From: a virus
Length of the DNA: 23,980 nt
Virus record (IMG/VR): IMGVR_UViG_3300028840_001133
Coordinates: 1-23,980 of that record
Strand: one strand, 5' to 3'
Shown: piece after piece, positions 6,904 to 23,609 of the stretch
Position numbering within the stretch: position 1 is the first letter of the stretch
How the letters are laid out: the number at the start of each line of letters is the position of its first letter
The notes under the pieces: model-generated
Told to the model about the DNA's origin: nothing
The model's input: the letters and a program-made list of their open reading frames with translations, nothing else
The model's database searches: none
Position numbers and translations under genes: made by a program

Positions 6904-7266
6904 TTATTTCTCCGAATGAACATGCCAAAAAAGATGACATGCTTTACATATTACAACCATATTTTCTTTTGAATGATTGTTTGTATTTCCATCTTTGTGA
7001 TGAACTAATAAAAAATTTTCAGATTTACATAAATAACAACAATCATGATATTTAACCATTGACCATCGTCCGTGTCTGAAGTTTGGGTTTTTCGTGAATA
7101 AAATTGATTTTCTCTGCTTTTCAATAGATTTTTTTGATCTTTTCCTTCCTTTCTTTGCTTCACTTATCTTTCTCTTTGTTTCTTCGCTTACATGATGCCC
7201 CATTAAACCTTTGCTTATTTCTGGTCTCTTTTTTCCCTTGAATGGTGATGGTGTTCCTTTTTTCAT
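6904..7266 (-). CDS. Free-standing HNH homing endonuclease with NUMOD3 repeats
   Basis: This 120-residue protein is inserted between the gpM-like and gpL-like tail genes without breaking either, as free-standing homing endonucleases usually are. Residues 1-50 are basic NUMOD3-type DNA-binding repeats (SPFKGKKRPEISKG, HVSEETKRKISEAKKG). Residues 75-118 are an HNH nuclease with C77-x2-C80, the HHKDGNTNNH core at 89-98 and C107-x2-C110 for structural zinc. All core residues appear present. An AGGAGG site lies 5 bases before ATG 7266, but part of it falls in a predicted leader hairpin. The gene reads with the tail operon, and its last codons carry the ribosome site of the gpL-like gene. Its natural target is probably the same intergenic spot in related phages that lack it; that is inference. 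Confidence 0.93.
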   Translation of the reverse strand: MKKGTPSPFKGKKRPEISKGLMGHHVSEETKRKISEAKKGRKRSKKSIEKQRKSILFTKNPNFRHGRWSMVKYHDCCYLCKSENFLLVHHKDGNTNNHSKENMVVICKACHLFWHVHSEK

Positions 7267-20125: not shown

Positions 20126-20151
20126 TATTGAGTATTCTATTCTAAATGAGG

Positions 20152-20226
20152 TCTAATAAGATAGTTATCTTGGAACTCTAATAAGATTTTGATCATGGAA
20201 CTCTAATAAGATAGTTATCATGGAAC
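20152..20226 (+). repeat. Three 25-bp tandem repeats (iteron- or operator-like)
   Basis: Copies occupy 20152-20176, 20177-20201 and 20202-20226 without gaps. All begin TCTAATAAGAT and end TGGAAC, with differences only in the middle. The first copy has a near-palindrome AAGATA-GT-TATCTT, and the third keeps GATA-GT-TATC. They lie just after the RHH gene and end exactly where the left long inverted repeat begins. Confidence 0.9.
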
Positions 20227-20255
20227 TGGTCCGTCAGTTAACATGGAGCAGGGCC
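20226..20255 (+). repeat. Left arm of long-range inverted repeat
   Basis: The arm is CTGGTCCGT, then 9 variable bases, then TGGAGCAGGGCC. Its inverted partner is at 21077-21106, with the same 9 + 9 + 12 layout and both outer blocks perfect. Confidence 0.88.
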
Positions 20256-20320
20256 TCAAACCTATTTCAATCATGGATTCATAATGACAGTTGTTAGAAT
20301 GATAATGTGGGGGAAGGGCC

Positions 20321-20351
20321 TTTTATAAAAATACACAAAAAAATTTTTTGT
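20321..20351 (+). repeat. AT-rich palindrome pair
   Basis: TTTTATAAAA (20321-20330) is a perfect palindrome. ACA6-A-T6GT (20335-20351) is a 17-base palindrome around a central A. Such tracts bend or melt easily and occur at origins; a role is not shown. Confidence 0.6.
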
Positions 20352-20526
20352 AATTGATGTTTTATGAAAATCGAAAATTCTATTCACACGATTGATATAT
20401 AGACAGGCCCACTTCCCGAGATTGCCCGATGGCCCCTATCCCCCCTTGAATGGCCCACAATATGAGTTACATTCCTGATTACATGCTTGGATTTCTACTC
20501 CAGTATGTTTTCTTTGTTATGTTTCC

Positions 20527-20566
20527 ATGTCTCCTTATGTTTAATGGACACAGAACTAGGAGACAT
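20527..20566 (+). repeat. 9-bp inverted repeat with 22-base loop
   Basis: ATGTCTCCT (20527-20535) is perfectly complementary to AGGAGACAT (20558-20566). It could form a hairpin or bind a dimeric protein. Confidence 0.6.
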
Positions 20567-20605
20567 TCCAGTTTACAATATGCATCATTGACCATCAAAG
20601 GTTAA

Positions 20606-20694
20606 AGGTGTATGGCATATCGCATAGGGCATGGGGTGTGGGACATGTTTAATTGAAGATGTAATGCGGAAGGTATATGGCATAGTGCATAGGG
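20606..20694 (+). repeat. Imperfect 24-bp direct repeat pair
   Basis: Copies at 20606-20629 and 20671-20694, 65 bases apart, both read AGGTxTATGGCATA then two variable bases and GCATAGGG. Further GCAT/ATAGGGG fragments follow each copy, giving a degenerate satellite-like patch. Confidence 0.65.
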
Positions 20695-20785
20695 GATAGT
20701 AATAGGGGAGTGGAGTGGGGGAATGAAGAGACGAGTCTGGAAACTGTTTCTGGTTTTGTTTCCCGGGAATGTGGGCATGCAATAA

Positions 20786-20833
20786 TAGAAGAATAGAAGA
20801 GTAGAAGAATTCTTCTGTTCTTCTGTTCTTCTA
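20786..20833 (+). repeat. 48-nt hairpin of six 8-nt units
   Basis: The left half is TAGAAGAA, TAGAAGAG, TAGAAGAA and the right half is TTCTTCTG, TTCTTCTG, TTCTTCTA. In rightward RNA all 24 positions can pair, 21 by Watson-Crick and 3 as G-U pairs, with no loop beyond the central turn. The leftward RNA would have A-C mismatches at the same three places. It sits where the G-rich left flank changes to the C-rich right flank. Confidence 0.9.
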
Positions 20834-21076
20834 CAATCTCTTGTGATTCTGATAACATACATAATAATCTGGCCCATCCCCCATTCTGTCCCGGCACAAC
20901 TTTACCTCACAATCTTAGACTATGATTAAGAAAATACACCCAACATACAATCCGAGTTAATCCCCTATCATTACCACAGTTTATCCCGATTTCCAATCCA
21001 CTCCCCAATCTTCCTAGGCCACTGGGATTAAGTCCCATTTCTAATACCATATGTAAAACCTATACCCCTATGGCTT

Positions 21077-21106
21077 GGCCCTGCTCCACAGAATCTAACG
21101 GACCAG
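21077..21106 (-). repeat. Right arm of long-range inverted repeat
   Basis: This is the inverted partner of 20226-20255. On the minus strand it reads CTGGTCCGT, nine variable bases, then TGGAGCAGGGCC. The outer ends of the two arms are 881 bp apart. Confidence 0.88.
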
Positions 21107-21148
21107 ATCTTAGTTAATTTCCCAGTTTAAATTCGGGACTTTTTTATT

Positions 21149-21176
21149 TTTACCTCTAACAAACATATACTATAAA
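21149..21176 (+). promoter_or_regulatory. Candidate promoter of the rightward Cys-rich gene cluster
   Basis: TTTACC (21149-21154) and TATAAA (21171-21176) are 16 bases apart, about 30 bases before the first gene. The -35 match is weak. An alternative -10, TATACT, lies at 21166-21171. It is supported mainly by position. Confidence 0.35.
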
Positions 21177-21178
21177 AA

Positions 21179-21199
21179 ATCTAGACTTAATCTAGGGAG
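21179..21199 (+). promoter_or_regulatory. Dyad beside the ribosome site of the first Cys-rich gene
   Basis: CTAGA (21181-21185) and TCTAG (21191-21195) form a 5-bp dyad, and the AGGGAGG ribosome site begins within its right edge. ATCTAG also occurs twice 11 bases apart (21179 and 21190), about one helical turn. It could be an operator or an RNA hairpin. Confidence 0.35.
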
Positions 21200-21207
21200 G
21201 AATTAAA

Positions 21208-21582
21208 ATGGCAAACTTAACAACTAAAGAAGTAAGACACATTAAATCTATGGAGAACTATGATGGAATCTATACCTGTCATAACTGTAACGGTAAAGTT
21301 GTACAACAATTTCGTATTGAAGCACTGGCTAAGAGTATGGTTGAAGATGAACACAGATATGAGTTTATGTGTGAAGCATGTGAGAACTGTGCATACTATG
21401 GAGTAGAGTGTGAAGGTGAAGACTATACCTGTGATGATGTTTTGGATAAAATATCTGAAGCTTCTGAGGAAATGATGGAACTATACATGGATGCTGCCAA
21501 AGAAGAAATAGGTGTATGTTCTGTATGTAATGGTACTGGTGTTGTAGATTTCGTTACTCATTGTATGAAGAAAGCTGCTTAA
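21208..21582 (+). CDS. Cys-rich protein 1 with DnaJ-like CxxCxG motifs
   Basis: This 124-residue protein has ten cysteines. The first motif is CHNCNG at 24-29; a middle group is at C55, C58, C61, C68 and C75; the last motif, CSVCNGTGVVDFVTHCM, begins at C104. Paired CxxCxGxG motifs bind zinc in DnaJ and related proteins, so a zinc-binding fold is likely, though there is no J domain. The ending pattern CxGTGxVDF is shared with the next two proteins, which points to tandem duplication. An AGGGAGG site lies 7-8 bases before the ATG. It is the first gene of the rightward cluster. I do not recognise a named family; possible roles are nucleic-acid binding or binding of a host protein. Confidence 0.85.
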   Translation: MANLTTKEVRHIKSMENYDGIYTCHNCNGKVVQQFRIEALAKSMVEDEHRYEFMCEACENCAYYGVECEGEDYTCDDVLDKISEASEEMMELYMDAAKEEIGVCSVCNGTGVVDFVTHCMKKAA

Positions 21583-21598
21583 AGAGGAGGAATTAAAA

Positions 21599-21889
21599 AT
21601 GGAATACAAAGTTTATACTGTTTATACTTCTAATGAAAGACCGGACTGTAATGGTAACTTTACTTGTAGGTCTTGTATGGGTTCTGGTGTGGATGATAGT
21701 AAGGTGATACCTGTTGCTTTGGTACTTGCTGGTGAATCTTGCCCGGAAGGTGAGTATGTAACACAATGGTCTGCTGAAAGATATAAAGAATTTATAGAGG
21801 AAGCGGAAAAGAAAAAAGAATGTGCTTGTCCGAAATGTGATGGTACTGGAAGTGTGGATTTCTTTAGACATGCTATGAGGGGAGATTAA
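21599..21889 (+). CDS. Cys-rich protein 2 with DnaJ-like CxxCxG motifs
   Basis: This 96-residue protein has the motif CRSCMGSG at 23-30 and CPKCDGTGSVDFFRHAM at 77-93, flanking a middle region with a helix rich in E and K (ERYKEFIEEAEKKKE). Additional cysteines are C17, C48 and C75. Both CxxCxGxG motifs are complete, so the pair could form one zinc site. The closing block matches that of its two neighbours. The ribosome site GAGGAGGAATTAAAA is almost the same as that of protein 1, in keeping with duplication of a gene together with its leader. No known family is recognised. Confidence 0.85.
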   Translation: MEYKVYTVYTSNERPDCNGNFTCRSCMGSGVDDSKVIPVALVLAGESCPEGEYVTQWSAERYKEFIEEAEKKKECACPKCDGTGSVDFFRHAMRGD

Positions 21890-21893
21890 TCTT

Positions 21894-22403
21894 ATGTATA
21901 CTTGTTGGAAATGTAATGGTACTGGTCTTGAGACTACTGAGGCTACTGGTCATATGGTTAATGGTAGGTTCGTTGTGGATGAAATTAATGAACAGGAAAT
22001 ATTTATCCCGAAGGAATTGATGTTGAAATATAAACTGTTCTATGAGTGTGAGCATTGTTGTGGTACAGGTGAGGTTGATTTTGTATCTTATGCTAATGGT
22101 CAACCGGTTAAGAACTCATCTTATGTTGAAGATTTTAGAGATGAGGAGGATCTTGATGATGTTATTATGTTTTTGGCTATTCATGGTGAGGATGCTGTTC
22201 CGGAGCATATTAGAACTATGAACAATAGAGAGCATAGATGGACTGCTATTAATAAATTTGTTAAGTCTGTATTGAAGTCCACGATGTTAGGTCGGCATGG
22301 ATATAACTTTGAAGTTATTAATGATGTAGATGATCTGTCTGTTTATCTTAATATCAGTGGTGCTATGGCTCATTATGTAAAAGAGAAGGAGCTTTATAAA
22401 TGA
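21894..22403 (+). CDS. Cys-rich protein 3, CxxCxG motifs plus a C-terminal domain
   Basis: The N-terminal 70 residues of this 169-residue protein repeat the plan of the two preceding ones: CWKCNGTG at 4-11 and CEHCCGTGEVDFVSYA at 52-67. The remaining 100 residues are a new, mainly helical, acidic domain (FRDEEDLDDVIMFLAIHGEDAVPEHIRTM, then TAINKFVKSVLKSTMLGRHG) without a motif I recognise. A GGGGAG site lies about 10 bases upstream, inside the end of the previous gene. Its TGA overlaps the next ATG (ATGA), so it is translationally linked to the HNH gene. Confidence 0.84.
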   Translation: MYTCWKCNGTGLETTEATGHMVNGRFVVDEINEQEIFIPKELMLKYKLFYECEHCCGTGEVDFVSYANGQPVKNSSYVEDFRDEEDLDDVIMFLAIHGEDAVPEHIRTMNNREHRWTAINKFVKSVLKSTMLGRHGYNFEVINDVDDLSVYLNISGAMAHYVKEKELYK

Positions 22404-23215
22404 CCCAATGGTTTGAGGATACTGACATACAATACAGGAGGATGTTATCTTACTATTCTAAAAGAAATAAAACCTCGTGTGCGTTGAATCAGTGTGCTTG
22501 TGGATGTGGTATGTACACTGTTAGAAACAATAAATATGTCAATGGTCATAACGCTAGAAAGAAGAAATGGTTTCCTAAAAAAGAGCTTCGATGTCAATGT
22601 GGTTGTGATCAAGTGATACCTTGGAAGAGACAACATCATTCTGGATATCCAAAGTATTTAGATGGTCATCATGTCCGTCTTAATAATCCAATGCACAGGA
22701 AAGATGTTAAAGCTAAAGTGAGTATTAAATTAAAGCGTAAATGGAGAAATCCCGAGTATAGACAACACCAGTCCGATATACACACTGGATATGTAATGCC
22801 CTTCGAACAGAGAAAGAAAATATCGTTGTCTAATACTGGGAAAGTGTTTAGTGAAGAGCATAGATTAAAGATTTCAGCTAACATGAGTGGTATGCGTAAT
22901 CATCAGTGGAAAGCTGATAAGGATAGATCTATTCAAGAGTATTGTACATCATGGAAGTTTATAGGGGCCGAAGTGATTAAAGAATACGGGTCTGTGTGTA
23001 ATAACCCGTACTGTGTTGGTAAATCTGATATAATAGTTCCTCATCATATAGACGGTGATAAAACTAACTGTCATTGGTCTAACTTGATACCGGTCTGTAA
23101 TTCTTGTAATCAGAAGGCCCATAATGGTATTATACCTCTTAATTATAAATATCTGAAAAGATTGTTTAAGAGAATAAAGAAGTATGGTTGGAATCCGGTA
23201 TTGATGTTTGAGTAA
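22400..23215 (+). CDS. Large HNH endonuclease with paired CxCGC modules and NUMOD3
   Basis: This 271-residue protein is probably a homing endonuclease. Two similar N-terminal modules, CACGCG ... YVNGHNAR (32-53) and CQCGCD ... YLDGHHVR (65-93), are likely small zinc-binding DNA-contact units. Then come NUMOD3-like repeats (MPFEQRKKISLSNTGKVFSEEHRLKIS), a CNNPYC pair, the HNH core VPHHIDGDKTNCHWSNL and the closing CNSCNQKAHNG. All core residues are present. The start overlaps the stop of the preceding gene (ATGA). It differs from the smaller HNH protein at 6904-7266 in length and N-terminal modules, so they appear to be independent insertions. The protein has no obvious ribosome site of its own and likely depends on coupling. 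Confidence 0.92.
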   Translation: MTQWFEDTDIQYRRMLSYYSKRNKTSCALNQCACGCGMYTVRNNKYVNGHNARKKKWFPKKELRCQCGCDQVIPWKRQHHSGYPKYLDGHHVRLNNPMHRKDVKAKVSIKLKRKWRNPEYRQHQSDIHTGYVMPFEQRKKISLSNTGKVFSEEHRLKISANMSGMRNHQWKADKDRSIQEYCTSWKFIGAEVIKEYGSVCNNPYCVGKSDIIVPHHIDGDKTNCHWSNLIPVCNSCNQKAHNGIIPLNYKYLKRLFKRIKKYGWNPVLMFE

Positions 23216-23324: not shown

Positions 23325-23609
23325 ATGTCTGGAAAAAAAGAAGTTATGTTTACAGTAATGATGAGTGTGGAGTTTTATAATAGAATGAAGGATATTGCCT
23401 CGTTATTTGGTATAAGTATGTCTCAGATGGCAAGAGACGCTATTGAGGCTGATATGGATGTTAGAGAGGCTGATTTGTCTTCTAAGATTAATCAAGCTAA
23501 AAAAGATTATCAGAAAGTGGATAAATCGTTTATGGATGCTTTTATTGATATTGTTTCAGATAGAGTTTCCCAAAGAATGAATAATTCCAATGAGGAACCT
23601 AAATTATAA
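23325..23609 (+). CDS. Ribbon-helix-helix protein 2
   Basis: ATG 23325 is chosen because AAGGAG lies about 9 bases upstream. A longer frame from a TTG at 23208 would translate the tandem repeats, which makes it unlikely. The 94-residue product starts with a RHH-type unit: strand KKEVMFTVMMS (4-14), helix A (VEFYNRMKDIASLFG), turn ISMSQM, helix B (ARDAIEADM). A second, helical half (NQAKKDYQKVDKSFMDAFIDIVSDRVSQRM) may be an oligomerisation or partner domain. It differs from the 51-residue RHH protein, which lacks this half. Tandem 17-bp repeats lie before the gene, so self-regulation is plausible. Confidence 0.75.
   Translation: MSGKKEVMFTVMMSVEFYNRMKDIASLFGISMSQMARDAIEADMDVREADLSSKINQAKKDYQKVDKSFMDAFIDIVSDRVSQRMNNSNEEPKL

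Follow-up and report, generated by a model that had tools for sequence, protein, structure and literature searches.

Three tandem genes for J-less proteins with paired CxxCxG motifs in a partial siphovirus genome

Phage proteins carrying CxxCxG knuckles

E. coli DnaJ has about 53 residues between its motifs 1 and 4, and these two motifs share one zinc, which forms zinc centre I. Stand-alone DnaJ-like proteins without a J domain have been published for two phages, gp49 of Bacillus phage Riggi (PMC3853051) and gp45 of Acinetobacter phage Loki (PMC5313236), and the latter was linked to lambda Q by HHsearch in the same work. The HMO-2011-type DNA polymerases carry a partial DnaJ domain (PMC9038755).

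Here we analysed three adjacent genes, P1, P2 and P3, in a stretch of viral DNA of 23,980 bases, the whole of which is called the window below. Like Riggi gp49 (phrog_8897) and Loki gp45 (phrog_9844), which belong to a size range of 117-187 aa, their products are stand-alone, J-less and equipped with two CxxCxG motifs. Unlike P1-P3, the Riggi and Loki proteins are encoded by single genes, have their motifs about 21-23 residues apart near the C terminus and lack the GTGxVDF block, and they were not recovered by homology search with P1-P3.

A tandem J-less pair was detected in another virus (L008; IMG/VR contig 3300032163_000004, 102 kb). Its two genes are adjacent and overlap. As in P1-P3, each product has a knuckle early in the sequence (here CNGxG) and ends with the CxxCxGTGxVDF block. 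However, each protein of this pair has three to four knuckles, and the pair adjoins a clamp-loader-like gene. The two proteins are 47% identical to each other, and their homology to P1-P3 is unproven. The same 102-kb contig also encodes a 219-aa phage DnaJ-like protein (L047, 1105-1764), whose J-domain-like start contains HPD and which has several CxxCxG motifs. In two HMO-2011-type polymerases (L007 and L011), CxxCxGTGxVDF is followed by a second knuckle, but the module is an insert in a polymerase frame of 516-522 residues and does not stand alone.

The block was also found in a J protein (L030) and in unrelated small proteins with one or two knuckles (L021/L027, L031/L034/L043, L036, L037/L039 and L038/L044). 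Since J-less two-motif phage proteins are known and a second tandem pair exists, phages reuse the two-knuckle module. The sequence-only reading knew of no described family with this arrangement. As far as searched, this holds for three such genes in a row with VDF blocks, and it is this array, with its shared closing block, that is unusual. It does not hold for J-less two-knuckle proteins as a kind, which are already known from the published Riggi and Loki proteins with their own PHROGs, the L008 pair and the other scattered motif carriers. At present, P1-P3 are a further orphan lineage among phage zinc-knuckle proteins, a scattered kind of which most members are uncharacterised.

The tandem genes and their surroundings

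The window covers the whole of one IMG/VR record, whose contig ends at 23980, and it is a partial siphovirus genome. An HK97-type capsid with its protease, a lambda-like tail module and the terminase are encoded on the minus strand, and P1, P2 and P3 lie on the plus strand (Table 1).

Table 1. Features of the plus-strand region around P1, P2 and P3
Feature	Position	Strand	Remarks
51-aa ribbon-helix-helix (RHH) ORF, upstream of P1	19970..20125	+	Pfam TacA1, 21.7 bits versus cut-off 21
Region without convincing genes, 1.08 kb	20126..21207	.	repeats, palindrome
P1, 124 aa	21208..21582	+	complete ORF; CxxCxG at residues 24, 104
P2, 96 aa	21599..21889	+	complete ORF; CxxCxG at residues 23, 77
P3, 169 aa	21894..22403	+	complete ORF; CxxCxG at residues 4, 52
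HNH/NUMOD3-type (homing-like) endonuclease, CxCGCG fingers	22400..23215	+	ATG overlaps P3 stop (ATGA)
94-aa protein from internal ATG, possible Arc/RHH-like regulator	23325..23609	+	weak profile match

The intergenic gaps are 16 bases between P1 and P2 and 4 bases between P2 and P3, and each gene has a plausible ribosome-binding site (P1, GGGAGGAATTAAA-ATG; P2, GAGGAGGAATTAAAA-ATG; P3, GGGGAGATTAATCTT-ATG). The close packing, the good ribosome-binding sites and the ATGA overlap into the next ORF count for an operon. P3 is followed by the overlapping endonuclease gene, then by the possible RHH-like protein of Table 1 and by an ORF of 64 aa that contains Cys. Because of the ATGA overlap, the endonuclease gene is probably part of the same operon as an invader, that is, a mobile homing gene inside it. 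For the possible RHH-like protein, only the longer reading of the ORF was weakly Arc-like (E = 0.03), and the 94-aa reading had no match.

P1-P3 had been described as the first rightward genes, which is not quite accurate. The true first rightward gene is likely the 51-aa RHH ORF, if it is expressed, and a 1.1-kb gap separates it from P1. This gap contains three iteron-like 25-b direct repeats (20152-20227), a 33-nt inverted pair (20223-20255 / 21077-21109; 821 nt apart, 79%) and a near-palindrome (20786-20833), and is possibly a control or origin-like region. No RNA families or tRNAs were found in the window, and a defence-system scan returned nothing for P1, P2 or P3. A 120-aa ORF (KGKKRPEISKGLMGHHVSEETKRKISEAKKG...; 6904-7266, minus strand) in the tail gene cluster has repeats like those of NUMOD3 and a pattern resembling HNH. 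By its sequence it looks like another homing-type endonuclease.

P1 has CHNCNG as its first motif and closes with CSVCNGTGVVDF, a span of 80 residues. Its first motif reads CxxCxGK (CHNCNGK), in which the second Gly of DnaJ is absent. Five further Cys lie between the motifs (55, 58, 61, 68 and 75), and this inner cluster may fit a second metal site. P2 carries CRSCMGSG and closes with CPKCDGTGSVDF, at a spacing of 54 residues; the corresponding motifs of P3 are CWKCNGTG and CEHCCGTGEVDF, 48 residues apart. P3 further has a C-terminal extension of about 100 residues, for which no family match was found in the profile libraries. The extension itself agrees with the earlier description, but its helical nature is only putative, as the model concerned has a pLDDT of 42 and shows strands as well.

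The early CxxCxG and the closing CxxCxGTGxVDF had been reported for all three proteins, and the statistics confirmed this pattern. A degenerate 36-base DNA pattern for CxxCxGTGxVDF, searched with up to 1 mismatch, gave 3 matches in the window versus 0.00 expected from 100 shuffles, and all three are exact, in frame and form the closing motif. The core CxxCxG pattern matched 7 times (1.46 expected), six of the matches being the P1-P3 motifs. ORFs of 40-300 aa with two CxxCxG numbered 3 in the window and 0 in 40 base shuffles. Other phage DNA, 273 kb from eight phages chosen for their terminase similarity rather than for the motif and from four short relatives of this virus, had no such ORF.

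Relatives and mutual similarity of P1, P2 and P3

No homologues of P1, P2 or P3 were found in viral contigs, with a search that reaches only close relatives, or in 50,697 phage records. They are thus an orphan set at the search sensitivity used, and the earlier reading of three genes in tandem was borne out. Searches with TerL, a TerL alignment and the capsid for relatives with an early region recovered only four short contigs, in which no ORF of the P1-P3 kind was present. Matches to CxxCxGTGxVDF in genome contigs were mostly chance or unrelated (phosphatase-like, ABC-type and a J protein). L021 and L027, which are small and related to each other, were also considered, and their similarity to P1-P3 was not above background.

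Plain shuffles suggested homology of all three proteins, but this signal was driven by the motifs. With the motifs fixed, only the P1-P2 similarity exceeded the shuffles (p = 0.0016 or 0.014, depending on the shuffled partner), and neither P1-P3 nor P2-P3 did (p = 0.17-0.39). The DNA of P1 and P2 is also similar over about 108 bases at the 3' ends (score 32 versus a shuffle maximum of 23), and both genes have near-identical ribosome-binding sites and encode the ending VDFxxHxM(K/R). Taken together, the fixed-motif test, the 3' DNA alignment, the common ending and the similar ribosome-binding sites indicate that P1 and P2 are probably tandem duplicates. P3 is plausible as a third copy, although it may share the motif alone, since its similarity to P1 and P2 was not above the motif-fixed shuffles. 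When the motifs were masked entirely, no residual similarity was left for P1-P2 or P2-P3, and P1-P3 gave p = 0.006, probably because the inner Cys cluster of P1 aligns there. This result conflicts with the fixed-motif test, and we gave it little weight.

These data also bear on whether the three proteins merely converged on a commonly reinvented knuckle pair, with neither common ancestry nor a joint function. The failure of P3 to exceed the motif-fixed shuffles against P1 or P2 is consistent with this, as is the presence of CxxCxGTGxVD in many unrelated proteins. However, P1-P2 exceed the motif-fixed control, and the full VDF ending would hardly arise independently in three neighbouring genes, as the full block occurs in the window and in only 5 other viral contigs among 2.9 million. 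We consider convergence alone improbable.

Profile matches and the putative role

No family match above a curated cut-off was found for P1-P3 in the profile libraries, in agreement with the expectation that no characterised family matches strongly. These libraries gave no J-domain match either, and HPD is absent from all three sequences. The sub-threshold matches were to DnaJ_CXXCXGXG (E = 0.003), BSD2_CRD (0.002), anti-TRAP (0.0014-0.02) and phrog_6060 (1e-4). They are short and lie around a knuckle, and the values of 0.0014 for anti-TRAP and 1e-4 for the Q-like family come from motif-rich short stretches. The earlier reading from the sequence, which saw a DnaJ-like CxxCxG module but no J domain, is supported.

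The resemblance to named families is confined to the knuckles. P1-P3 share CxxCxGxG-type knuckles with the PF00684 and PF25436 domains, but score 16-19 bits against cut-offs of 27-32.7, have one knuckle pair instead of two and no J domain. Against DnaJ/Hsp40, each has two CxxCxG versus four CxxCxGxG, and the best PF00684 score was 18.1 versus 32.7 bits; for the BSD2 type, PF25436 reached 18.6 versus 27 bits over 19 residues of P2. The anti-TRAP (RtpA) profile NF058604 scored 18.7 (P3) and 14.9 (P2) versus 65 bits, over 13-14 residues, and phrog_6060 covers only 24 residues of P2, at the knuckle. With anti-TRAP and the Q-like antiterminators (phrog_6060 and phrog_127), nothing outside this short, weakly matching stretch is shared. 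All three proteins fit the descriptive kind of phage stand-alone two-knuckle zinc proteins (small, J-less, two CxxCxG).

A chaperone role for J-less DnaJ-type zinc proteins, or interference with host DnaK/DnaJ, could be read from the weak Pfam matches (DnaJ central domain, BSD2_CRD); examples would be a BSD2-like holdase or a competitor of the DnaJ cysteine-rich domain. A PDB search with a profile of P1-P3 and the L008 pair gave weak matches to Hsp40 chains and to the Hsp70 escort protein Tim15 (E = 0.03-0.6), which we regard as a lead only. On the other hand, the Pfam matches are short and below cut-off, and there is a single knuckle pair in P2 and in P3, against two in DnaJ. An Hsp70/DnaK co-chaperone role is unlikely because P1-P3 have no J domain, and the module is by itself no sign of a chaperone, since Q-like regulators and DNA polymerases have similar knuckles as well. 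A chaperone-related function thus seems unlikely to us. Host takeover and chaperone interference had both been proposed from the sequence, and nothing in the evidence favours either over other roles.

Regulators of transcription antitermination or attenuation, in which the knuckle would be part of a protein loading on RNA polymerase or of an RNA-binding regulator, have a slightly better though still low chance. The relevant matches are phrog_6060 (antitermination Q-like; 1e-4) and phrog_127 (0.03) for P2 and anti-TRAP (0.0014) for P3, and the published HHsearch link to lambda Q concerns the similar Loki gp45 (PMC5313236). However, these matches are confined to the knuckle, phrog_6060 also matches an L008 protein beside the clamp-loader-like gene, and no helix-turn-helix or Q core domain was found in P1-P3.

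The reading that we prefer, tentatively and at a little less than an even chance, is that P1-P3 are zinc-knuckle proteins, encoded in tandem and diverging from each other, which act as adaptors or regulators, belong to an accessory operon that is probably early and bind one zinc per knuckle pair. Against this reading count the low confidence of both AlphaFold models (pLDDT 42), the shuffle-level similarity of P3 to P1 and P2, and the restriction of the Q-like and anti-TRAP matches to one knuckle. The genes would lie near the start of this rightward siphovirus operon. In each protein the two CxxCxG knuckles would gather four Cys around one structural zinc, comparable to DnaJ zinc centre I. In P2 and P3 the distance between the first and the last motif is close to that of DnaJ motifs 1 and 4, and each of these two proteins should hold one structural zinc; P1 could hold two zincs through its five extra Cys. 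The knuckle fold would act as a small scaffold to which a partner, protein or nucleic acid, binds. Our best guess for the role is regulation, as an adaptor on the host or phage transcription or translation machinery, in a manner comparable to anti-TRAP or to the zinc part found in Q-like proteins. P1 and P2 would have arisen by tandem duplication and subsequent divergence of their middles, with P3 as a possible third copy that has an added domain.

A bolder reading is a phage-specific, tandemly amplified family of zinc-knuckle adaptors, in which the constant CxxCxGTGxVDF is combined with fast-changing middles and each copy has a different host or phage partner. We consider this doubtful. If P1-P3 had a zinc scaffold in common but different targets, they would illustrate how phages use tandem duplication to diversify a small module for binding, and the search for host partners would have a manageable set of proteins to start from. 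Each of the three is acidic (net charge -14 for P1, -5 for P2 and -12 for P3), which mildly favours protein partners over direct nucleic-acid binding.
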